Positions 1-53,689 of a stretch of 64,000 nt of DNA are shown here, one piece after another; position 1 is the stretch's first letter, and each line of letters starts with the position of its first letter. A program made the position numbers and the translations under genes. The notes below the pieces were generated by a model. The model made no database searches. It worked only from the letters and a program-made list of their open reading frames with translations, and was not told the origin of the DNA. Where the stretch lies: contig MZZL01000064.1 of assembly GCA_002749535.1 (NCBI GenBank), positions 1-64,000 of the forward strand. Direction: 5' to 3'. The stretch is from Apophysomyces variabilis (Eukaryota; Mucoromycota; Mucoromycetes; Mucorales; Mucoraceae).

Positions 1-140
1 AGAGTTTCTGAAAATGTACGATCCCTGGATCATGGCCGGTCTTTGTTGAGTATTTCAGTCTGGTCACAATTTGACTGGTGACCTAAGTCATGACCCACTC
101 CCTGTTATACCCTAATAGTACATTGATTATCATTAAACAA
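1..140 (-). repeat. Dispersed repeat, inverted copy of 41185-41313
   Basis: The first ~125 bases are almost the exact reverse complement of 41,197-41,313, including the shared block with GATCCCTGGATCATGGCCGG and the block ending CCCTAATAGTACATTG. One clear mismatch is visible (TTATACCC here, TTACACCC in the other copy). Similarity stops at about base 140 and may extend left beyond the window. No coding potential is seen. It is a non-coding dispersed repeat or the end of a larger element; the type is not recognised. Confidence 0.8.
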
Positions 141-38847: not shown

Positions 38848-39829
38848 ACTGCTACGTTGGATCTATTAGACAGAGATTGCGAAGTGGTATATGTTTCAAT
38901 TGGGAACGGCAATAACCTGTATGGGATCTGAATAACAACGAGAAGTGTAAATTAAGTTAAAAAATAAAAAAAGAAATAAGCGTCCCGCTTATATCTGGGG
39001 TTCCCTTTTTATAATTTTCGAGAAATTGCCGCAGCTCAAAACACCAAATGGTGGAACCACCTTTGCCATAATAAAATATAGAAAAAGAAGGCGTTTAAAA
39101 CAGTCAACTCCAATGGTAACTGTTTGTAGATTAGGGTAATAACGGTAATCATTTTCGCTGTTTAAGCGTTTAACATATCTTTCTCTTTGCGCAATGAGGT
39201 ACGTGGCTCCAAATTGCGGCAAAAATTGAAAGGTATTGTGGTGTGCACCCTACATATATTAAATAACCATAAGTTCCCCCTTTTGCTGCCGTCACGTTCC
39301 TGCGTTTAACTCGCAAACGAACTGTAGAAGTAGTTGAACGTAACCAATAGGCCACAGTTGGCTTATACAGTATTTCCCAAAAATAAATTTTGCAAAATAT
39401 AAACATCAAAGTCGCAATCTATTGGAAATGAAATTTACATATGGATCTGGCATTTGCTTGGTGGGAGATAGGTATGGCGTTGTTAGTTTTCGACAGTTAT
39501 GTAGAATTGTTCAGTTCGAGCTCTTATAACACGATGGTTAATGTGATTTGTTAGCGTCAAGCCCAGTTTCCAAAATGCGCCAAGTGAATTTGCTAGATGC
39601 GACTTTAATTTTCGGAAATAAAGTACAATGCTCTTACCAAGTCTAGACCAAACTTTGACTGCTCAGCGATTTACTGGCTTTTGCATGATTGGATGAAAAT
39701 ATTTGCGGTCAGACTACCCTTCTTTGCGTACAGTCGTGTCCAGGTTCACTATCTACCGAGATAGTTTATTTCAAACCACAGCAAGACGAATTTATTTAAA
39801 GAAGTGTTTCTCTATTTTTGCATCTAAAG
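38848..39829. other. Intergenic, AT-rich
   Basis: Upstream region of the minus-strand coiled-coil ORF and flank of the transposase fossil. Open frames at 38989-39222 and 39170-39409 (minus) show no domain. Confidence 0.45.
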
Positions 39830-40135
39830 AAAAATCTCTCAGCGCGTCTGACCCATCCTTGACAGTCTGAGCGCTTTACTTTTCGCGCTGCTTGAACAAT
39901 ACGCTCTTGAAGGTTATCGTCAACTTGTAGGGGCTCCCTTCTTACCCCAGCTTTCACTTTGGCCCAAAACTCTTCTATTGGGTTGAGAAAGGGAGAGTAG
40001 AGAGGAACATAGAGATATTTGTATCTCTTTCTTCGGCCAACTGCTTAACCTTGACTGGTGTATGGATGGGTACATTATCCATGACAAGATAGTACGCGTT
40101 CATTCCGTGGCAATCCAATCTTTTGTGATTCTTTA
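39830..40135 (-). pseudogene. Tc1/mariner-type DDE transposase remnant
   Basis: Minus-strand translation gives RLDCHGMNAYYLVMDNVPIH (second catalytic Asp in MDN) and then, after a one-base frameshift near 40,030, KRYKYLYVPLYSPFLNPIEE followed by FWAKVK. The YSPxLNPIExFW block holds the third catalytic acid of the Tc1/mariner/IS630 DDE_3 superfamily. The tail runs to about 39,830 (VQAARKVKRSDCQGWVRRAE). The first Asp and the HTH region upstream (to about 40,490) are not recognisable. The copy is frameshifted and N-terminally decayed, hence dead. Confidence 0.8.
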
Positions 40136-40877
40136 ATAGACCAAGTTTAAGATAAAATAGAAAAAAAAAAGAACATAACTACATGCAGGGAATATCAAAG
40201 TGGAATATAAGGCAATACAATTGAGCAGAACCGGAACTGGGTGCCATTGCCCTGACAGCTTCTAATACCATAACTGACACAAATGGATATGATAGCATCA
40301 ATGACGTATAGAAGCGAACGAAGAGGGTTTATTTCCTCTACAGATGTTCCATTCTGTTCCAGACTTTCTGTCAGACTGAGTCCCATTTTACTCTTGGGAG
40401 AATTGTTGTCTTATATCTGAATTGTTGTCATCCATAAGACATCCATCGATTTCTTATCCATGACTGTGATTTTTGGTTTCATTAATCACGTACAATTTAA
40501 AAGCGAAGGGACAACACCTTTTTGGCTCTTTGGCTCTGTTCTCCAAAAACATCCCCGGTATGTACTTCGCATTGATCATATGTACAGAATGACTGATACC
40601 CCTCTTCTGTAACCTTTAGCCTGCATGACCTCTGTCCCGAACCACCTTGGTTGTGTGAGTAAGCTCCCTGCACTCCACTTGGCAAGTGAAAAATAAATGT
40701 TGTTTATTTATGTACAGTGTTATTCATTATCTTCTTCTTCCAAGCCCTCGCCAGGTATTGCATCGCTTCAAGTCCTCTGCAGTGCGTTACACACAAACAG
40801 ACCGCTCATGGAAGCCGTGTCTCTTTCTCGTCGCCCCCACCGACACAGGTGCATGGCCGGCCCCTGTCTTTGGGCAG
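40136..40877. other. Decayed transposon flank / spacer
   Basis: May include the eroded N-terminal half of the transposase (a minus frame at 40195-40386) and cargo beside foldback repeat copy B (40,740-40,870, relatively GC-rich). No functional gene is supported. Confidence 0.35.
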
Positions 40878-41128
40878 GATTACCCTTCGGGGGTAAGTAA
40901 AAAAGATGTCAAGCTATCCTTCCATTTACTAACCATAAACATATTTTTTACGCTGCTCAAATGAATTTTGTGTCCACGGAAGGACCAAGTTGAGGTAAGT
41001 AAAATATATTTCCCGCATAATACATTTACTAATGACGCATATTTCTATCCCTTTTAGCGCAAACTTGATTCTTGCATGGACGCAAAATTTATTTAGAGTA
41101 GCGTAAAAAGTTGTTCAATAGACAGTAT
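40878..41128 (-). repeat. Foldback repeat, copy B (inverted relative to copy A)
   Basis: Reverse-complement relative of 22722-22978. It holds the block GGATTACCCTTCGGGGGTAA (about 40,878-40,897) and the inverted arms at about 40,943-40,992 and 41,060-41,109 (TTTTTTACGCTGCTCAAATG against AGAGTAGCGTAAAAA). It ends near TTCAATAGACAGTATAA, which matches the start of copy A. It is diverged but full length. Confidence 0.75.
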
Positions 41129-41184
41129 AATTAGTAGTACCTCCATTTGTTCTAATACAGGTAATAGTTTGTATCTTTTCGTTT

Positions 41185-41313
41185 ATCAGCAATGTACTAT
41201 TAGGGTGTAACAGGGAGTGGGTCATGACTTAGGTCACCAGTCAAATTGTGACCAGACTGAAATACTCAACAAAGACCGGCCATGATCCAGGGATCGTACA
41301 TTTTCAGAAACTC
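41185..41313 (+). repeat. Dispersed repeat, inverted copy of 1-140
   Basis: Near-identical reverse complement of the first ~125 bases of the window, directly next to foldback copy B. Non-coding. The high identity implies recent duplication or an active family. Confidence 0.8.
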
Positions 41314-42312
41314 TCTCTTCACAGTATCTCTGTGTGTGTCACTTCCACCTAAATCTAAATTCAGATAAGGTTAGGTGTATAAGGTTAAAAAAATATATAA
41401 AGAAAAGGGAACATAACAACAGGAATCCAAAGCAGACAACTGTGGATAAACTAATGATAATGTGAGCTTCATTCACCATTGTCTTCTTAATCTTCTTGGA
41501 GAAAAAAAGAAATGGAAGCTAAAAAACAAAGAGAAAGAACAGATCGAATTCAAACTATAGTAAGCTTCTGTTTGAATGGGTTATCTATTTAGCATTCGGT
41601 TAATCTGTAGTATAGCGTTTCTTCCACACACATGCCTATTGTCGTGTGCCAGCAAGAATTTGCAACACATCGCTGCCCTTATTAAACGCAAAATGGAATC
41701 AAATCATCAGTAGTTCGGGCTTTCAGTCATATACATTGACACTGATAAGCGAGGTGTTAAGCTTTTTAAATACCTTTTACAAAGTACCATAGCTTCACAT
41801 AATCAGAAATCTGGAAGCTGGCCGTATTTGGTTCTTTGAACTTGGAGAAAATCTCCTAGTTAAAGTTAAGTTTTTATTGACTTAGATAAGACAGTGTAGT
41901 AATGGCGGGGATATATCAACGAACCGGGTACGTTTTCCCCAAAATGGCTGTTCTTTATATAAAGATTGTAAATGTACTTCTTTTCCTTTCCTTTTTCCTT
42001 AAAAGTTTTTGATAACTAGATCTTTAAAAGGCTAGTGAAGCACTACATCGAACGTTCCAAATATTATCGTTCAACAGCAGTGCCTCCGAAGCATGTACCC
42101 CAGACTAACAGCAGGAAGATATCCCTCTAACGGTTGCAAGCAGTAGTGCTGATGCTATTGAGCCTGCATTATAGGAGTCGATTCAAAACTGTATGCGGGA
42201 CCATGAAGTTGTGGTGCATGCATTGGGTTTGAAAACGGAGATGCAGAGCTCTAACACAAAAGCGCAATATAAATCGAAACAGAAAGCAATTCATTATAAC
42301 GTGCTTACTATT
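41314..42312. other. Intergenic, AT-rich
   Basis: No coding region, RNA gene or further repeat seen. Confidence 0.5.
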
Positions 42313-43029
42313 TCATTCTTTATTTAAACCGTAGGACGCATTTTCTTGCTGAATTTTCTGTAGGTCTATCGTAGCGGTCAGCAGTACGCAGATGGTCACA
42401 TCGTAATCAAGGCAAAACTTAGTCTTGAAGAAGTGGTTTCCATACAAGGATATCCCAAAGAAAACGACGGTACACCTTAGCAATTTGGACATTTTACGGG
42501 GGATTCGTACGTAAAAGTTGATTGCCGTCTTTACTTTACTCAAACAGCGTTGAGATTACACTCACATCGGCATTCTTATGGGAAGGACTTGAAGATGTGG
42601 CAGCAGAGTAAAAATCACCCACAAGTCTATGAGAAAAAATACAATTACATCGACCGTTGATGGGGGCAATCCAAAAAGATTATACATGTGAAGTACCGCT
42701 CAATTTGTCCATGTATTACCTTTATGTAAACACGGAGGCGCGTTTACGCAACTGTATGAGATTTCTGTTGCAATGTACGATGTTACTGCGAACAGAGGCC
42801 ACGCGATTTCTGGAGCATGCAGGTCTTTGATTTTGAGATGGAAGGGTACAGCAAGTGCCCGGCTTTTATCGATCTTTTGATGCAAGGCTAAATCAACCCA
42901 ACCAACTGGAGCAATTATGCGGCCTGTATCCGACACAAAGACATTTAATTGTGTGCCTTTTCTGCTCTCGTACTTTGTTTTCTTCTTTCGCTGATACGTT
43001 GCAAGCGAACCTTTTCCATCTTTTTCCAT
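42313..43029 (-). CDS. Unrecognised small gene, divergent from the Fanzor-like gene
   Basis: Minus-strand exon 1 (from the ATG at 43029) opens MEKDGKGSLATYQRKKKTKY and continues LNVFVSDTGRIIAPVGWVDL to about 42,717. A frame at about 42,610-42,550 (FYSAATSSSPSHKNADV) and the frame 42543-42313 (NFYVRIPRKMSKLLRCTVVF ... ASYGLNKE) look like later exons, with a GTAATA donor near 42,716, an ATAG acceptor near 42,625 and a GTGAGT donor near 42,553. Phases do not all close, so the model is provisional. No family is recognised. It sits head to head with the large plus-strand gene, with a 455-bp shared upstream region, so it may belong to the same mobile element. Confidence 0.4.
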
Positions 43030-43484
43030 GAACCAAGATTGGTTGGATATAAAGGTAGTAAAAGGTAAGGAATAAAAGTGGGAGTGCGATCATGAATATT
43101 CAAGTCAGCTTAACCTTTATCCCTTGCTTCCCTGTGATTTTCTTTATTCGTATTGCCGCTTCTTTCTCAATAGCAATCACTATAACCTAGGTTCTTTATA
43201 CTTTGTATCCTTGGTCTTTCCCTTCTTTGCCAACCGTTATAAAGACTTGTCCATTTTTTCTCTGTTGTCCGAATCGAATTTTTCTCGTTATCTTCTTTCT
43301 CCTTTTCAACTACATGAGAGCTAGCCACGATAAATAAAGTGATAAAGTTTCAGTTTTTTTTTTATCAGAAAAGTTCGCAGTCCAATCTGTCAAGTGAAAA
43401 TTGGACAACAGTTCAGAGAACAATTCGCATATCACCTTTCCGTTCTACTTTTGAGAACTAGATCCAACATTTCTTGTATTTTTT
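43030..43484. promoter_or_regulatory. Shared upstream region of two divergent genes
   Basis: A 455-bp AT-rich divergent intergenic region with pyrimidine tracts and a T run near 43,356. A bidirectional promoter is inferred from gene orientation only. Confidence 0.35.
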
Positions 43485-46400
43485 ATGAACGAAATACAAT
43501 TACCTACACCACGCGGTAGCGCCAGAAGAAAAAGGAAAAGGCAAACAGAGCCTCAGATATCCTACGATCAAGCCAAAAATACCTTGCTTGGAGTACTTTT
43601 ACAGAAGTTGAAGAGTACTATAGCAAACGAACTGTGGAAAAATGAGACAAAAAATTCTAGAAAAACAAAGAAAGGAAAACAGTCTGCCAAAACAAAAGAA
43701 AAGAGACTGAAGGCTCAAGAAAAAAGGATGGATCGTTTGCGACAAGCTCTTGAAAAAGCAGACAGAATCCCTCGAGGAAGTTTTGAGGAAGCAGACAAAA
43801 AAGCGGGCGTCCCTAAAGGGACAATAGAGAAACAGATACGTTCTAGACTCTCGTCGTCCCATAAAACAGGCGAATTTTGGAGACAATGCGCGGTCGATAA
43901 CTTCGATGATGTCTTGGCTGTGGTCAAAGCTGAAGGAAAGCAGAACAGACCCAAAAAGAAAGATGAAGACTCGGATAACCTTTTCAGGACATGTACAGTT
44001 CCTTTGAAATCCGTACTGCGGCCGGATCTTGACGAAAATCTGAAAAGGATTTTTATGCACACGGTAGAGTCGACGTCCGTGCAAATGACGGATTATGTGT
44101 CCGACTTGGCAACTGTTGTACGTGCTACCATGTTGAAATACGTGTCAGTTTCCTTGTCTCTAGACCCAGCATCAGGTTCAGTGAAAGCTGAATTGGACCA
44201 AACATCAACTGGCTTCGATATCCGTACAGTTGTACCCAAAGAAAAATTACGTGACGAAAGTATGCTGGTAGATGACTATTTTGTACCTGTAGCCCCAATG
44301 CCAGATAATCTTTCGCAGTTTCTTGACGAGATGCCAGGCAGGCGAAACAACGATCTACTTTCCATGTTCAATGAGAACCATATCCAATTTCTGCACGGGT
44401 TATATTTTGGCACAAAAGGAAACGTGAGCAAAGAAAAACACTACTTATGGATGCAGTTCCATGATCAAACTCTTGACAATCAGCCTGTAATTCCCGATGG
44501 TCTTTGCAGGACGTCTCATTTTTACATGAAGCAATTTTCGACGAATTTAAAGAATATGTGGGCAGGATCTCTTTACAACAGAAGCATGAATCACTTATTG
44601 CGTGTTCTACTCCGTGTTAATCTTGCACCAAGGCGTGAAGAAAAAGTACGAGAAATCAGAGAGAAGGCAAAACTAGCAAGAGAAAAAGAAATCGAGCAGC
44701 AACAAGTGATCAAGTACCAATATCGGAAAAAAGCTATCAAAAGGAAATTAAAAAACGAGAAAAAGCAATTGCGAAACTTGAAGAAGCAGATCGAGCAGGA
44801 AGAAGAAGATGATATCTTGGTAAGGCTAGCCACGCGTGCGGCGACGTGTGCTGAGGCGATCGAACGGCTCGAAAACCAATTGCTGGCGCGATCGGAGTCC
44901 AGGTCCAACCCAAAATCAATAAAAGTAGAGCAAATGAACAACCGAGCGTCGGTTACAAAAGAAGAGGTAAACTTCATTATTGATTAGGATATATGCTTAC
45001 GTGGCAAAATAGGAGCAGCAAGCGAAGATTTTGATATCCCTCGGTGAAACACACATCGGTGTGTTCGAACAAATAGAAGAAGAACTGGAGGAGGAGGAGA
45101 AGGAGGAGACAAGTGAGCCAAGCAGGCGAAAGCTCGGTATCCTGCAAGCTATTACCAAAGCCCTCCTACAGTCAGATAAGATCAGCGGCCATGTAACAGT
45201 GGAAGATGTGCTAGCTACCTCTCATGCGGACGATGCATTTTCTCCTCAAGAAATCGATACCGTGGTGAATATCGCAAACGCATTAAGGCCGTACGTCATT
45301 AGGGGACAAATTGCTCCTTGTATACCGCTGCGTCTCAATTTCGTAGTATTGGCGAACGCTTTGCTCTGTTCGATTGGATATCAAGAGTTCACTGCTTCGA
45401 TATGTCCCACAATCAGCCCTGCTTCTGTTCACGCACTACCACTAGATGCAGTAGCCATGTATGAAATGTTTGGGTCAAGCTATGCCCAGCTTGATATTTA
45501 CAAGGCAGACGGCTCAGTGTTCACAAACAGAGACGAAGCAATAGCAGAAAAGCGAACAGTGATTGGATCGTTTTTCAACGTAGAGGCTATTGAAAAAACA
45601 TGCAAGGAGCGTGGGTTGGTACCACGCTGGCGCATCACAGTAACTCCGCAGAAAACAGCAATTATTGATGGTAACGTTTGTGAACAAAGAAGACCCATAG
45701 AATCACGGTACGAGGCGAGACGAAAGAAGTATTATAGGAAAAAGGAACCCTACGTCCAAGAGCCGAGCATCGAACAACAAAGCACGCCTGAGTTAGCAAA
45801 GACTCTCGATGATACAAAGAAGGATGTAAAAACTCTTGAAACGTTGAAATGTCAACACACCAAGCTTGTGAAAGAAGCCACGAAGTTAGTTGCAGGTTTG
45901 CGCTCTAGCTATCAGGAAAATCAAGCTATTTGTCAAAAGCGCATAAGGGACAAAAGAAAGGCAGACAAACATGAAAACGTTACTGAAAAGGAAGCAGCAT
46001 ATCAACAGCAGAAACTGAGCTATGAAGCTTTAAAAGCTGCAAAATTGAACTGGTCAAACCAACAAATGGCTTTGAATCAAGTACACGATCGGTTAGCAAA
46101 TGCAAGACGGAAGAAGTACAAGTTGGAACAGGTAACGTTGAATACAAACTTGCATCAACATAAAAGCGTATATTAATATACAGAATCGTACAGTTGGTGA
46201 AAGCGCATCAAAAGAAAAAAGGTAAAAGTCCTGCTGGCAGAAAAGAGAGAAAAAGCAAAGGAGAAGAAGACGAGAAAATGGAGGAAGCAGATGGTGATGA
46301 AGAAGATACCAAATACAAAAAAGAAAAGGAGAAAAAGAAGGACAATCACAACGATGATAACGACGAGGAGGATGAGGAGGAGGAGGAGGAGGAGGATAGC

Positions 46401-47474
46401 CTGTGCAGACCCCAAAGTGGGAGATGCCCCGGCTGTGAAGACAGCGTAGGCCGATCAGATCTTGGGCCACTTTTAGAAGATCAGAACAATGTACTGACGT
46501 TCAGTGGCACTGATTACGGTTTGCAAGTGCTGTCGACTACAGTGCCTATTACGAGACAAAGAGCAGATTTCCATTTACAGCTTTACAATCGATATTCGAT
46601 GCTGGGTGTCAATAACGTCAATGATCACGATGATGATATCGATGTCTCTCCTACTAACATGCTCCAGCTACCAAAGCCGATACGTATCACGGCAAAATCG
46701 CTCGATGAAAAAACACTTGCAAGGACATTCCGCAAGAAACGGNNNNNNNNNNNNNNNNNNNNNNNNNNNNNNNNNNNNNNNNNNNNNNNNNNNNNNNNNN
46801 NNNNNNNNNNNNNNNNNNNNNNNNNNNNNNNNNNNNNNNNNNNNNNNNNNNNNNNNNNNNNNNNNNNNNNNNNNNNNNNNNNNNNNNNNNNNNNNNNNNN
46901 NNNNNNNNNNNNNNNNNNNNNNNNNNNNNNNNNNNNNNNNNNNNNNNNNNNNNNNNNNNNNNNNNNNNNNNNNNNNNNNNNNNNNNNNNNNNNNNNNNNN
47001 NNNNNNNNNNNNNNNNNNNNNNNNNNNNNNNNNNNNNNNNNNNNNNNNNNNNNNNNNNNNNNNNNNNNNNNNNNNNNNNNNNNNNNNNNNNNNNNNNNNN
47101 NNNNNNNNNNNNNNNNNNNNNNNNNNNNNNNNNNNNNNNNNNNNNNNNNNNNNNNNNNNNNNNNNNNNNNNNNNNNNNNNNNNNNNNNNNNNNNNNNNNN
47201 NNNNNNNNNNNNNNNNNNNNNNNNNNNNNNNNNNNNNNNNNNNNNNNNNNNNNNNNNNNNNNNNNNNNNNNNNNNNNNNNNNNNNNNNNNNNNNNNNNNN
47301 NNNNNNNNNNNNNNNNNNNNNNNNNNNNNNNNNNNNNNNNNNNNNNNNNNNNNNNNNNNNNNNNNNNNNNNNNNNNNNNNNTTTTCTGCAGAGAGGATAA
47401 CGTTGCCACCATTTGATCCCAGCCATTTTGACGCTGGAATATCCAATATTGCCGATACCACCGTTCAAAGGTAA
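43485..47474 (+). CDS. Large Fanzor/TnpB-like (RuvC-type) protein, with assembly gap
   Basis: Three exons, 43485-44966, 45013-46131 and 46194-47474, are joined by phase-0 introns of 46 and 62 bp, giving about 1,293 codons with a 639-N gap (46743-47381) that keeps frame. Exons 1 and 2 are helical, Lys/Glu-rich and coiled-coil-prone, with a folded part around IGSFFNVEAIEKTCKERGLV and RWRITVTPQKTAIIDG. Exon 3 starts with a highly basic then highly acidic linker, then VLTFSGTDYGLQVLSTTVPI. GTDYG fits the GxDxG RuvC-I motif that carries the first catalytic Asp in TnpB, Cas12 and eukaryotic Fanzor nucleases. RuvC-II, the zinc ribbon and RuvC-III would fall in the gap; only a tail (LPPFDPSHFDAGISNIADT) is seen after it. 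Fanzors are RNA-guided DNA nucleases carried by eukaryotic transposons and expanded in Mucoromycota. The assignment is inference from motif, layout and setting. No stop or frameshift is visible outside the gap. Confidence 0.5.
46743..47381. other. Assembly gap (639 N)
   Basis: Run of undetermined bases inside exon 3 of the Fanzor-like gene. Its length is a multiple of three; whether it is a true or an estimated size is unknown. Confidence 1.
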
Positions 47475-48685
47475 CCGACATATTTAAAGTGTGGCAGCTT
47501 TAACAGCTAATATATCTTTACTATAGGTGCGTACAGTCGTCTTCAGAAAGCCACCATACTGGTAGGTGTTACTGTTAGTTATCTGCACAAGTAATTTGCT
47601 TATTTTATAAACAGGATGCGAAGGCCGGCATCTGTCGCTATGACGGACATATAACAGGTTTCTTTTTTTAAATTCAGTCTCATTGTGTGACTCACAACAA
47701 TGCCTATTATAGGAATTTGTTATACTATGGCAGCATCCGTTATAAAGTGCTCACAAATAAAGTAACTTAATAAGTTTTTTCGGAATACGTGCTATCTTCC
47801 TCTGTGATTCATATGCTATACCAGAAACGTTTCTTATTGTATTTGGCAACTATGAAATAACGTCAACCATATGTTGATGTTGTTATGGTACTACTGATTT
47901 GACCAGATCACTAAGCCTAGCTAAGTATGCTGCGCCGTATCTGAGCCGTTCCATCAAACAGTAACTCTCCCAACCTTTGTATACGACTCACCCAAAGTTC
48001 TCCATATGCTGCTTATTTACTAATGTTCAGCCGTATTGCAATAGGGATTAGTTTATTTATATAGGCAACATACAGCTCGTATGTCGTATAAGCTGAGAAT
48101 TCTTGATTTGATCCACACAAAGCTTGATGGGCTGTCAGAAGGCATTGGATGATTTCTGCTGATTCGAGCATCTTTATTTATGTTTTTTATCACAATATTT
48201 CCCATTTATAAGCAGAGAATGACCGACAGTAAAGCCACTGCTGTTATAGTCTGTTCTAGGAAAGATCTACTGAGAATAATATCTGAAATAAGCTATTGAG
48301 TCCTCGCAGATTGCTTTTAGGTAAAACCTTGTTGTGCTATATGTGTATAGAAAAAGGGACGGATAGAATCTTTTGAGACTGTTGGATATCTTTATTTCAT
48401 TCAACTTGTCTGCCTATTTATAATTATTTGATCTTATGCGGGATTTGTAATTAGTGAACGTTCTTCTCGGCGATAGGTGTATGATTTAGCTAAGTGTAAT
48501 AACTGCAGTAGAGCAGTGTCACCTTGTCTTCATCCTCGGTGATAGATCTCTGATTTAGAGAAGAGGTGTAGTCAGTGTTCCAAACTAGAGAAGTTCACTG
48601 TAAATGGAAACACGTTAATTCCGATCATCCTGTTCATGGAACACAAGTACTATGAAGTCACACTTCGACGGCGACGTATACCACA
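47475..48685. other. Spacer containing a presumed old LTR
   Basis: No gene is seen. The right end, up to 48,685, is probably the 3' LTR of the chromovirus fragment that follows: it ends CA directly before a polypurine-tract complement (TTACCCCCTTCC). The left LTR boundary could not be set because no second copy is present. Confidence 0.4.
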
Positions 48686-49010
48686 TTACCCCCTTCCAGG
48701 TTAGACATAACCGTTAAAACTGTAATAGTTTGTGAAGGTATTAATGGCGTGTACGTTTTGTTGGTCGTGTATTTGTCTGGTTTCTATTCAGACGTTTTTC
48801 GGAACGTGTGTTTGATGATGTGCGTGTCTGACGCGTTGTCTTGTTATTTGGTTTAGAACCAAGTCGTTCCCAGTAATCCATTATAGGCTTTGGACTGCTG
48901 AAGGAGTCTGGCTCCTGCCATGTGTCGTCCTTTTCATCATAGCCTTCCCATCTTACTCTGTAAATATAATTTCCCTTTGAAATTTCTTTGTGACCGACAA
49001 CAGCTTCAAC
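48686..49010 (-). mobile_element. 3' end of an old Ty3/gypsy chromovirus (chromodomain + PPT)
   Basis: Minus-strand translation from 49,010 gives VEAVVGHKEISKGNYIYRVR, then WEGYDEKDDTWQEPDSF and PIMDYWERLG, a chromodomain with its aromatic residues. A basic tail ends RPTKRTRH at the stop 48,741-48,743. A purine-rich tract (GGAAGGGGGTAA in sense) at 48,686-48,697 then marks the 3' LTR start. The same layout ends the intact chromovirus at 50.5 kb, but the sequences differ clearly, so this is a second, older family member. It is cut off at about 49,010, exactly where the hAT-type terminal repeats begin. Confidence 0.8.
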
Positions 49011-49014
49011 AATA

Positions 49015-49135
49015 GGGTTCCGTACGGTTCGGTTCTTCTCGGTTCTTCGGCAGAACCGAATCGAACCGTCATAGTGAAGGAACCGAACCGAACCGAACCG
49101 AGAAGAACCGAGGAACTGAGGAACCGAACCGAATT
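49015..49135 (+). repeat. Palindromic GGTTC/GAACC array at left end of hAT element
   Basis: Tandem CGGTTCGGTTCTTCTCGGTT on one side and its complement GAACCGAACCGAGAAGAACC on the other, about 40 bp apart, form a strong potential hairpin. Terminal and subterminal repeats of this kind are transposase binding sites in hAT elements. A related, decayed array lies at 57,628-57,760 on the other side of the transposase gene. Confidence 0.65.
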
Positions 49136-49735: not shown

Positions 49736-50534
49736 ATGGTTTTCGAACGCGGTGAATCTTCCAGAGATCCTCGAGGTGCTCTCTCAGATAGGGTAAAATT
49801 ACTATCGTTTATTGTACCCTGTCTCGATTAACCTTTGTCAGCAGGCAATGACAGAACGTATGTCGATAGCACGAGAGTCATCTGTGATGTCGCTAGACTC
49901 TATGGCTTCAGGCACTGACCTAGGAGAATCTGGATCCTTCATGCTGGATACACAGTCTCAAGAATCTGTTTCAACTGACATTGATAATGACGAGGCCAAG
50001 GGTAGTTGGATTTTAAAATTCAAGTATGGCGAGCGGTTCGTTGATAAAGATGGGAAAAGCCGGATTCGATGCCTTCTTCCTGGATGTGGTGGCAAGCATT
50101 TTGCAGCAAACCAGTCGTGCACATCTGGACTACTTAAACATTTACGCGTCAAGCACGATGTCACCAAGGATCATGGCCCTCATGCAGGCAAAAATAAACG
50201 GGTTCTTGGTGCTCTCGACAAGTTTCTAATTGGCACAAAACGACCTCGAACTTTCGACAAAGTGCAGTTTCATGAGCAATTTGTCAAATTCCTTGTGAAG
50301 GCTAAGCTACCATTCAATATCAGCGAAAACGAGGAACTACACAGATTACTTGAAATGGCACAGTCAGCACCAACGGTTGATTCGGTGAAGCTTCCGTCGG
50401 CAGACACAGTTGCCAAAAAGGTTTTTTATTTCCATCTTATCCATACATGTTTAACTTACAGAGAAATAGACCAGAGAGCAGTATTTCCGTTATAAGGACA
50501 AGGTTGCCGCTTTGTTGAGCAAAGTACCAATGTT

Positions 50535-51037: not shown

Positions 51038-53689
51038 CTACATGCGTTTGGTACGTTTGGTAGTAGAAGGTCCTGATTGTTGGGCCTGTTTCCTTTTGCC
51101 AGTACCTGATCGGCGTTGCCAATACCTTTCAATAATAGCAGGATCGTTGAAATCCTCAGGGTTCTGCCAAGTATTTTCGTCGTCTTTATAACCTTTCCAT
51201 TTGACGAAGTACTGGTAGTGTCCTTTGCGCACTTCCCTGTGATTGACGATGTTCTGCACTTCATAGTAGTCGTCTGAAACTACTGTGTCAGGCGAAATAA
51301 GTTTCATATGAGATGGTGCGACATCTCGTGGAAGCAACATGTTCTGCTCATCAACCAAAGTATAGCTGCCTCCTTTGTTCTGTCTCAGAACAGTGAATGG
51401 TCCTTCGTATCTTGGGTCTGTTTTGCTGCTTCTAGACACGTTCACGATCATGACCTTGCTTCCAGGAGGAAATTCAACAATGCGATGATTACTGTCGAAC
51501 TTGTTGCTTTGTTTATTCTGCATTGTTTTAATGCGTTCATGGATAGCAGGTATCACTACTCGTTCCATTTGTTCGAGGCGTTTGGTCATTGCCCGAGTAT
51601 CATTAGAAGTCTGTTGTACATTTCCCACTTTTACTTTACGATAGTCCTTGAAATTGTTTGGTTGACGGGCAAACATCAACGCAAAAGGACGTGTGTTGTG
51701 CAAAGAGGAAATTTTCAGATTGATAGCAAGTTGTGCACTTGGTAAATACAAATCCCAATCTTGTTTCTTACCTTGCAATCTTTTGACAACAACCTCTTTC
51801 ATGGTTTTTACCCATCGTTCTGCGACGCCGTTTGCGCGTGGATGATATGGTGTTACCAGTCTGTGGTCTATTCCTGAGTGTTCTGTAACGAGTGTGATGA
51901 CTTCGTTGACAAATTCAGTGCCATTGTCTGATTGCAGGACTTTCGGGAAACCATAGTCGCAGAATACTTGAATAAGTTGCCTAGCGACAGAAAGTGCGGA
52001 TTTGTCTGGTAACGCTCGTAAAATGCAAAAGCGTGAAAATACATCAACCATAACTAATACAAAGTTATTACCGTTGATAGTGGTAGTGTTGAAGTCACCA
52101 AGGTCAATAGCCCAGTGGTCTCCAGGTTGGTCTGCGGTTATGTGTCGTAAGGGATGATAACCGTGTTTTCCGATGTTGAATCGTTGACAGTCAATACACT
52201 TGGCTACTGTGTTAAGTGCGTCTTGTTTGATAGTGCTCCAGTGGATTCCGTCACTGTGTAAAGCATTCACGATAGCATCTGAACCGAAATGGCCAAGAAG
52301 ATGCGCTTTCTCCAGCAGTGATTGTCGTTCTGCTGTAGGAGGTGTCATATACTCGTGTGGTTTCAGTAAGCGTTGCGTGAGAACGTGTGTGGGAGTAGAT
52401 GAAGGTGTTCCTGAATTGTCATGAGATGACGTGTTTGTGGAAATACCCCCCTCCGAAAATGGAACAGGTGGTGCAAACAGACGCGAGAGAGCATCCGGTA
52501 AAACGTTGGCGATGCCAGGACGATGTACCACACGGTAAGTATAATCACAAATGGTATCAAGCCAGTTGATCATCATTGGATTGGCAATTTCCTGGGTGTG
52601 CAGGTAAGTTAAAGCGCGATGATCAGTGTAGAGCGTGAATTTGTTACCCCAAAGAAATTTGTGAAACTTTTTGAGGGCGTAGACAACGGCAAGTAATTCA
52701 CGTTGTGTGACAGAATAGTTGCGCTCTGATCGACTGAGGGAGCGTGCCATGAAACCGATGTAATGAATGCGGTTGTTAATGACTTGATAGAGGACAGCGC
52801 CAATACCGTCGTTGGATGCGTCTGTAGCAACCGAGAAGGGTTCATCCATGTTTGGATGGCTGAGGATAGGAGCTTTCTCCAAAATTGCCTTGACACGATT
52901 GAATGTATCAGTGTGCTGTGATGTCCAGAGGTTTTCAAGGCTACCAGCATTGCGTAATTTGTCAAGTGGTGCCGTAAGAGTGGAAATGGTAGGTATGTGC
53001 ACTCGGAAGTAATTGACAAGTCCAAGAAACCTTTGAATATCTTTGCCTGTTTTGGGCTGTGGCCAAGTTTGGACGTTTGTAACCTTGCGCGGGTCAAGGC
53101 GAATACCATCTGCATCCACGCAGAAACCAAGTAAATAAACAGCGCGTTGCGTGAAGTGACATTTCTCTGGATTGAGTATGAGATTGACAGCAGTGAGACG
53201 GCGGATTGCATCTGCAACGTGTTCCGTGTGTTCTTCCAGTGTTTTGGAAAAGATGATGATATCGTCAACGAACGTAGTAACATAGTTAAGTCCGTGAAAG
53301 ACATAATTCATGACGCGTTGAAATTTTGAGGAGATGGGTTTGAGTCCAAAAGGACAACCGCGGAACATGTATTGTATGCCATCGACAGTGAAGGCAGTTT
53401 TGTGTTGGTGAGGTTCATAAATTTGAAACCGATGAAAAGCATTTTTCAGGTCAAGTGTGGAGAACACTGTTGCGCCATGCATCTTCTGAAAGATGTCATT
53501 AATTAACGGAAGTGGGAAACGATCATCTGGAAGCAGATTGTTGATGTGGCGTGGGTCTAGGCAAGGTCGTCTGCCTGTTAGATTGCCATACGCGTCCTTT
53601 TTCGGTGCGAAAGTCAGAGGGCTATTCCATCTGGTATTCACTGGTGCACGGGTGATGATGCCGTCAGTGAGCCATTTGTTCACTTGCTC
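51038..53689 (-). CDS. Chromovirus pol: reverse transcriptase, RNase H, integrase, chromodomain
   Basis: About 883 codons after the TGA at 53,690-53,692, in frame with the upstream part. In order: RT with FRGCPFGLKPISSKFQRVMN and active site TTFVDDIIIFSK (about residue 140); RNase H with VATDASNDGIGAVLYQ (about 290); integrase zinc finger HLLGHFGSDA ... CIDCQ (about 465-505); integrase DDE core with AIDLGDFN, LQSDNGTEFVNEV and GVAERWVKTMKE; and a chromodomain NIVNHREVRKGHYQYFVKWK with GYKDDENTWQNPEDF (about 795-850), ending in a basic tail. All catalytic motifs are present. The chromodomain directs integration to modified chromatin in this clade. The lack of an own ATG near the RT start shows it was made as part of a Gag-Pol fusion. 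Confidence 0.93.
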   Translation of the reverse strand, partial: EQVNKWLTDGIITRAPVNTRWNSPLTFAPKKDAYGNLTGRRPCLDPRHINNLLPDDRFPLPLINDIFQKMHGATVFSTLDLKNAFHRFQIYEPHQHKTAFTVDGIQYMFRGCPFGLKPISSKFQRVMNYVFHGLNYVTTFVDDIIIFSKTLEEHTEHVADAIRRLTAVNLILNPEKCHFTQRAVYLLGFCVDADGIRLDPRKVTNVQTWPQPKTGKDIQRFLGLVNYFRVHIPTISTLTAPLDKLRNAGSLENLWTSQHTDTFNRVKAILEKAPILSHPNMDEPFSVATDASNDGIGAVLYQVINNRIHYIGFMARSLSRSERNYSVTQRELLAVVYALKKFHKFLWGNKFTLYTDHRALTYLHTQEIANPMMINWLDTICDYTYRVVHRPGIANVLPDALSRLFAPPVPFSEGGISTNTSSHDNSGTPSSTPTHVLTQRLLKPHEYMTPPTAERQSLLEKAHLLGHFGSDAIVNALHSDGIHWSTIKQDALNTVAKCIDCQRFNIGKHGYHPLRHITADQPGDHWAIDLGDFNTTTINGNNFVLVMVDVFSRFCILRALPDKSALSVARQLIQVFCDYGFPKVLQSDNGTEFVNEVITLVTEHSGIDHRLVTPYHPRANGVAERWVKTMKEVVVKRLQGKKQDWDLYLPSAQLAINLKISSLHNTRPFALMFARQPNNFKDYRKVKVGNVQQTSNDTRAMTKRLEQMERVVIPAIHERIKTMQNKQSNKFDSNHRIVEFPPGSKVMIVNVSRSSKTDPRYEGPFTVLRQNKGGSYTLVDEQNMLLPRDVAPSHMKLISPDTVVSDDYYEVQNIVNHREVRKGHYQYFVKWKGYKDDENTWQNPEDFNDPAIIERYWQRRSGTGKRKQAQQSGPSTTKRTKRM

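Follow-up and report, generated by a model that had tools for sequence, protein, structure and literature searches.

A candidate long and divergent TnpB/Fanzor superfamily gene on a single-gene mobile element of Apophysomyces variabilis

The window, by which we mean the whole analysed stretch of 64,000 nucleotides from Apophysomyces variabilis (contig MZZL01000064.1, forward strand), contains at positions 41192–47726 (+) a mobile element of about 6.5 kb, delimited by its homology to other copies and designated here family A. Its gene, which encodes a protein of ~1,300 amino acids (aa), is very probably, judging from its sequence, a divergent member of the TnpB/Fanzor group on a recently active single-gene element with many near-identical copies. 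Fanzors are RNA-guided nucleases of eukaryotes. A second family from the same genome, family B, was compared with A throughout.

The gene starts at an ATG at 43485 (+). Exon 1 (43485–44966, +), an open frame encoding a basic N-terminus and the N-terminal half of the protein, is followed by intron 1 (44967–45012, +; 46 nt, phase 0, GT-AG), exon 2 (45013–46131, +) with a conserved block (ANALRPYV ... ICPTISPASVHALPLDAVAMYEMFG) and a coiled coil after it, intron 2 (46132–46193, +; 62 nt, phase 0), and exon 3 (46194–46742, +, up to an assembly gap), in which an acidic linker precedes the RuvC-I site GTDYG. Both introns have the same positions in family B, and their removal gives a frame that is open up to a run of N at 46743. 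The start codon, the two phase-0 introns and the open frame are as the sequence-only reading had proposed, and so is the GxDxG-type RuvC-I site in exon 3, VLTFSGTDYGLQ, whose Asp codon is 46512–46514. About 975 residues precede RuvC-I in A and about 945 in B.

The gap of 639 N (46743–47381) amounts to 213 codons of N. Its content was taken from L051, an ungapped sister copy of family A, in which the corresponding 714 nt comprise the end of exon 3, intron 3, exon 4, intron 4 and most of exon 5. The earlier figure of about 1,293 codons without a stop is nearly right in length, but 213 of these codons are N, and reading straight through the gap is not correct because the L051 counterpart has two more introns. 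The Glu, the Cys ribbon and the final Asp, which the sequence-only reading expected within the gap, can all be read in L051: a Glu at the alternative position in TDEHRSSQTC (with TDEHRSSQTCVFC in the same region), a C4 zinc ribbon CVFC...CVNSKC of the pattern CxxC...CxxxxC, and the final Asp in NRDVQAA. Directly after this Asp, the window resumes with the end of exon 5 (47382–47470, +; FSAERITLPPFDPSHFDAGISNIADTTVQ). The donor of the probable intron 5 (47471–47526, +) aligns with those of family B and of P0001 (EC973_007782, 1285 aa, Apophysomyces ossiformis), a deposited protein essentially identical to family B. The TAA at 47472–47474 thus probably lies inside intron 5 (donor 47471) and would not be a stop codon. 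The protein tail past 47474, which depends on the last exons, is uncertain; the deposited B protein and our model disagree there, and the length of the A protein ranges from about 1,280 to 1,303 aa with the choice of last exons.

A search of the whole host genome (38.7 Mb in 126 contigs) found 14 sister loci of family A with exon 1 at 98–100% protein identity (15 rows including the window), as well as partial and degenerate loci. The copies have common ends, which is what the search suggested by the earlier reading was meant to find: homology to 12 other A copies begins mostly at 41191–41196 (in two rows at 41178 and 41188) and ends at 47725–47730. Family B has 12 full-length copies, 11 from the genome search and the twelfth from searches with the element ends and from the protein search; the 11 fetched copies are 99.7–99.9% identical over about 4.95 kb and differ in their flanks. 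The near-identical intact copies suggest recent activity of the elements. It should be noted that the contig itself starts inside a further family A copy, whose left end lies at window positions 101–120 (−) and which is cut by the contig start; this is an exact 20-base match to the A left end, and no shuffle matched as many bases. Two more A left ends lie near contig starts (C48, bases 106–125; C15, bases 89–108). Since A left ends sit at the starts of these three contigs, the assembly probably breaks at family A copies, whose number would then be underestimated.

Families A and B are 45% identical overall (55% of residues differ), with 44% of residues differing in the RuvC part and 38% identity in exon 1. 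Their intron positions are common, introns 1 and 2 also having the same phase, and the splice junctions of P0001 are those of the A/B model up to the last exons. Over 1,206 codons, the proportion of synonymous differences (pS) is 0.86 and that of nonsynonymous differences (pN) is 0.38, which gives a pN/pS of about 0.45. In every part of the protein, exon 1 included, pN is lower than pS, and purifying selection acts along its whole length. The open frame and the splice model are not due to chance, because B shares the introns and phases, P0001 has the same junctions and pS exceeds pN.

With the whole B protein and its conserved middle as queries, the protein search matched only the deposited B protein. 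A two-sequence profile of the RuvC halves of A and B found 12 related proteins, none with a precomputed Pfam domain and several of them fragments: four from Apophysomyces or Mortierella alpina (P0002, P0003, P0008 and P0010), two from Radiomyces spectabilis (P0011 and P0012) and six from metagenomes. The relatives that cover the respective stretches have in common GTDYG, IGxxGTxxGxRxxGHxxRGG, T[ND]ExxxS[QK]xCxxC, CxNxxC and RDxxAA, and the exceptions are mostly the degenerate P0002 and P0003, annotated proteins of Apophysomyces sp. that lack, respectively, the Glu with the final Asp and both Asp. In A, B and P0003–P0009, the first Cys follows the alternative Glu by 7 positions; this Glu is replaced by G in P0002 and is unreadable in P0010–P0013. 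No relative was confirmed in a pattern scan of 84,980 prokaryote genomes or in viral contigs. P0008 (Mortierella) and P0009 (metagenome) have an extra Cys/His-rich insert before the IGDAG strand, with the patterns CCAHHVPRH...CP and CxxCKAHHTPH...CP, which is possibly a second zinc site.

The assignment to the TnpB/Fanzor superfamily is based on motif, profile and structure-database comparisons. Bao and Jurka (PMC3627910) give the composite motif D-X(125,275)-[TS]-[TS]-X-X-C4 zinc finger-X(5,50)-RD. With a less strict pattern, whose spacer may reach 290 residues and whose last spacer may be shorter, it is present in A, B (and P0001) and P0004–P0008, i.e., in 5 of the 12 relatives, and is missing from P0002 and P0003, which lost residues, and from the fragments P0009–P0013; its generic form occurred in none of 5000 shuffles of the last 420 residues of B. 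An eight-sequence RuvC profile (A5), from which P0002, P0003 and P0010–P0013 were left out as degenerate or lacking RuvC-II/III and in which the others were trimmed, was compared with 177,635 PDB sequences. The fungal Fanzor1 proteins SpuFz1 and PpFz1 ranked first and second (expectation values, E, of 5.4e-4 and 0.015), and their Glu, four Cys and final Asp aligned with those of the profile. A 14-sequence profile that included the degenerate relatives again had SpuFz1 at the top (E 0.0019), with PpFz1 in fourth place (E 0.16).

Comparison within the host genome points in the same direction. An hhalign comparison with six ordinary Fanzor exons of this genome gave E 1.8e-5 and a probability of 78%, versus E 0.3 when the N-terminal 400 residues were used as a control. 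Open reading frames (ORFs) of 279 aa at C27:199766, C79:226208, C95:3320619, C107:34902 and C110:80510 bridge the two types: they match P0004 with E of about 5e-19, and their loci score 24.9 bits against PF07282 (Cas12f1-like TNB) alone and 26.6 bits with neighbours, the cut-off being 26.3. The fetched part of a bridging ORF, which scores 24.5 bits (E 3e-5), slightly under this cut-off, reads VNEYNTSKTCHWC...CVNPNC...NRDGNASKNIA, half-way between the A/B type and the ordinary Fanzor type. PF07282 matches 73 places in the host genome, and the eight that were read (L001–L008) look like ordinary Fanzors; in L008, the position of the alternative Glu holds K. These eight resemble A/B in the pattern DE[FY]xTSxxCxxC ... 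RD and differ in being recognised by Pfam and having CxxC as the second knuckle; DPG is present in L003, the sole locus where this site was read. P0004 as a query of the host genome gave 151 exon-level matched segments spanning dozens of loci, e.g., C112:276455–277385; these include many diverged members at roughly 30–50% identity, and one diverged match is on the contig of the window.

Overall, these data support the Fanzor/TnpB-like nuclease proposed by the sequence-only reading: the residues hidden by the gap could be read, Fanzor1 structures rank at the top, and scans of Pfam and NCBIfam gave no family over the cut-off, so that a better match to another family was not found; the best Pfam entries, such as KASH_CCD and BUD22, stay below threshold and fall on the coiled coil and the acidic linker. 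With the exons taken singly, Pfam likewise yielded just coiled-coil and low-complexity matches under the threshold. In profile searches of the kind that it had proposed as a check, the PF07282 cut-off was missed and A5 ranked the Fanzor1 structures at the top. Its suggestion of an unusually large N-terminal half, perhaps of a new subfamily, also stands, with about 945–975 residues before RuvC-I for which the stretches searched gave no significant match. On sequence grounds, our verdict is that the family would be a new, divergent and very long branch of the TnpB/Fanzor superfamily. Searches of the open-licence literature on Fanzor/TnpB in Mucoromycota, Apophysomyces and Mortierella returned no title on a family of the A/B kind.

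The closest known proteins are SpuFz1 of Spizellomyces punctatus (PDB 8gkh) and PpFz1 of Parasitella parasitica (PDB 9cf0), which, like the A/B proteins, are encoded by fungal mobile elements and have the alternative Glu at the same distance of 7 positions before the first Cys, a C4 ribbon with GxxxCxNxxC, and NRD, all in register. The CxNxxC second knuckle and the residues that follow it speak for a derived member of Fanzor1 and against a new entry. The A/B proteins differ from Fanzor1 in their length of about 1,300 aa (mostly 600–700 aa for Fanzor1, PMC11423790), in having DYG for DPG, and in a long coiled-coil and acidic insert before RuvC-I. PMC10711439 describes DPG with the alternative Glu as a fingerprint of Fanzors, DPG being near exclusive to them; in its section 23, TnpBs with both D-phi-G and the alternative Glu form a clade of their own. 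A and B share the RuvC-I and RuvC-II features of this bacterial clade and differ from it in size, in their introns and in that the pattern scan confirmed no prokaryote relative. Because the DPG motif is missing, we do not file A and B as canonical Fanzors.

The left end of family A reads ATGTACTATTAGGGTGTAACAGG / ATGTACTATTAGGG and the right end GGAATTTGTTATACT / GTTATACT, and those of family B, whose length is about 4.95 kb, read AAATACCGAGTGGG and AGATACCG. TACT occurs at both A ends, and 4–6 bases recur directly at both element ends. By inspection, no conserved terminal inverted repeat (TIR) was seen at the ends of A or B, and there is no consistent target site duplication (TSD): the junction match is 0–2 bases in 11 of 11 B copies and 0–1 in eight of eight paired sister A copies, while the window copy has ATG on both sides (a 3-base match). 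The combination of TIR and TSD characteristic of the Mariner, MuDR, Sola and IS4-like superfamilies is thus found in neither family, and Fanzor1 elements differ from A/B in this respect as well. Searches with the ends, allowing up to three mismatches and using the reversed pattern as a control, found 12 left and 12 right B ends (plus one weak right match; control 0), all pairing at about 4.95 kb, and 17 right (control 0) and 24 left A ends (control 7). When the two flanks of each of the 11 fetched B copies were joined and searched for, none of the 40 candidates scored (of 392) was an empty site. No gene for a tyrosine recombinase or a Rep-helicase was recognised in A or B; it is conceivable that they are non-autonomous Cryptons or Helitrons. 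Helitron2-like ends, suggested by a subterminal inverted match, were dropped, as the element has no second gene. A putative 14-kb autonomous relative at C94:282475–296519 is more simply explained as an A copy whose run of N is long: two fetched 6-kb pieces contain 5,901 and 5,493 N, and an A-type RuvC exon lies near the right end.

In these respects, A and B are similar to the Fanzor1 elements MCi-2 and MCi-5 of Mucor circinelloides, which section 12 of PMC3627910 describes as lacking recognisable TIRs and having an unclassified mobiliser; the same paper gives MCi-2 a length of several kb and near-identical copies, as in A/B. It also gives MCi-2 and MCi-5 TSDs of 11–12 or 6 bp, unlike B (11 of 11) or A, and a partial Crypton or a Harbinger transposase in some copies, unlike A/B, in which no second gene was found.

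The A/B protein most likely works by analogy with other Fanzors, whose mode of action we take from PMC10432273. The protein would bind RNA made from the right end of the element. At 47648–47726 (+), a terminal hairpin closes at this end with an RNA fold z score of −2.87 (1 of 200 shuffles as good), and the family B right end has a hairpin in the same place with unrelated sequence (z = −2.69, 1 of 200 shuffles). The window hairpin is a candidate for the scaffold end of a guide RNA. As it abuts the flank, the first flanking bases would act as the guide, the protein would cut matching DNA, i.e., the empty site on the sister or homologous chromosome, and repair of the cut would restore or copy the element. 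CTGTCGCTATGAC, a conserved stretch close to the right end, was also considered as an RNA hairpin and rejected, as it may be coding sequence of the last exon. No tRNA was found near the element.

Several observations weigh against this picture. The RuvC-I of A and B is DYG and not the Fanzor-typical DPG, and its Asp falls outside the stretch aligned to the PDB Fanzors. The two-sequence profile (A1) matched no Fanzor in the PDB, which changed only with the addition of relatives, and with the single B sequence SpuFz1 reached just E 0.12. The N-terminal exon of L003, an ordinary Fanzor of the same genome, likewise gave no PDB match at E up to 1. Scored against PF07282 (cut-off 26.3), A reaches 12.3 bits and B has no match; among the relatives, scores are 10–16 bits at the correct place in 5 of 8 proteins scanned. 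The N-terminal half had no significant PDB match in the stretches tried. The z scores of the right-end hairpins come from two sequences, and the hairpins could equally mark a DNA end for a recombinase; the right end has no Rfam match, and folding of the left end gives z of −3.21 in B and 0.23 in A.

Other explanations were weighed. One is an independent entry into fungi of bacterial TnpBs with D-phi-G and the alternative Glu, separate from the DPG Fanzors, which would make the family a third eukaryotic lineage. In line with this, RuvC-I is D-Y-G in 9 of the 10 relatives in which it can be read (all except P0009 and P0010), N-Y-G in the remaining one, P0003, and DPG in none, and a suitable clade is described in section 23 of PMC10711439. 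We consider such an origin unlikely, however, as the CxNxxC knuckle followed by NRD resembles SpuFz1 and PpFz1 and not the CxxC of ordinary Fanzors in the same genome, and no relative was confirmed among the prokaryote genomes scanned. Loss of catalysis, with the protein repurposed, e.g., as a DNA-binding regulator, would fit the missing residues of P0002 and P0003, but A, B and P0004–P0008 retain Asp, Glu and Asp even though P0004–P0008 are just 35–56% identical to B in the RuvC part, so that this is very improbable. A chance open frame or dead repeat would be consistent with the four sister A loci (of 14) that carry a stop or frameshift and the one with an altered start codon and an exon 3 duplication. 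It is refuted, and has virtually no probability left, because eight of the 14 have no interruption in any of the five main exons and a ninth has none in its readable part, the coding exons of all 11 fetched B copies have no stops and no indels relative to one another, and pN/pS is about 0.45.

The protein could also be the transposase or recombinase of its own element, the N-terminal half recognising the ends and the RuvC nuclease having an optional role. Every frame of at least 100 aa on both strands of B is an exon of the gene or antisense within it, and Pfam recognises nothing in the single upstream frame of more than 100 aa in A. The 12 B copies all have their full length, and no shorter derivative with both ends was seen. 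By inspection, joining the A ends would create a 14-bp core between inverted arms of 8 bp. The A left end also varies mainly at the border: among 18 copies, positions 1–7 carry 8 variant cells of 126 and the next 13 positions 1 of 234, relative to a background rate estimated at 0.6%. For this count, 18 of the 24 matches were kept; those on C64 and C91, apart from known copies, and four with three mismatches were excluded, two of the latter (C71 and C80) being A-related. On the other hand, Pfam revealed no recombinase or DDE profile (a partner enzyme acting in trans was not searched for), and no TnpB or Fanzor protein is known to transpose alone. We regard a self-sufficient transposase as distinctly unlikely. 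The combined case, a third eukaryotic TnpB-type lineage with D-Y-G, the alternative Glu and ~950 residues before RuvC-I that would be a single-protein transposon coupling end recognition to guide-matched cutting, is a long shot.

If families A and B are divergent TnpB/Fanzor members, they would escape surveys that depend on PF07282 or on DPG as a fingerprint; a query with a single relative in one genome already yields 151 segments over dozens of loci. As the near-identical intact copies suggest recent activity, the A/B elements would also be a system for testing the role of Fanzors for transposons, with one gene per element to explain.

The surroundings are rich in transposons, as the sequence-only reading had stated, with repeats flanking the element and a Ty3/gypsy-type pol in the window. 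A 1.45-kb repeat at 39677–41128, directly upstream of the element, has more than 20 relatives at 88–93% identity, some of them partial. The pol frame at 51041–53689 (−) is open and includes reverse transcriptase, RNase H, integrase and a chromodomain. Between it and the element, a 130-aa open frame at 48741–49133 (−) contains a stretch that by eye is chromodomain-like (VVGHKEISKGNYIYRVRWEGYDEKDDTWQEPDSF), beside short repeats of the GGTTC/CGAACC type near 49030–49135. A 232-aa frame at 49797–50495 (+), for which Pfam gave nothing up to E 0.1, shows by eye a C2H2/BED-like pattern, CLLPGCGGKHFAANQSCTSGLLKHLRVKH.

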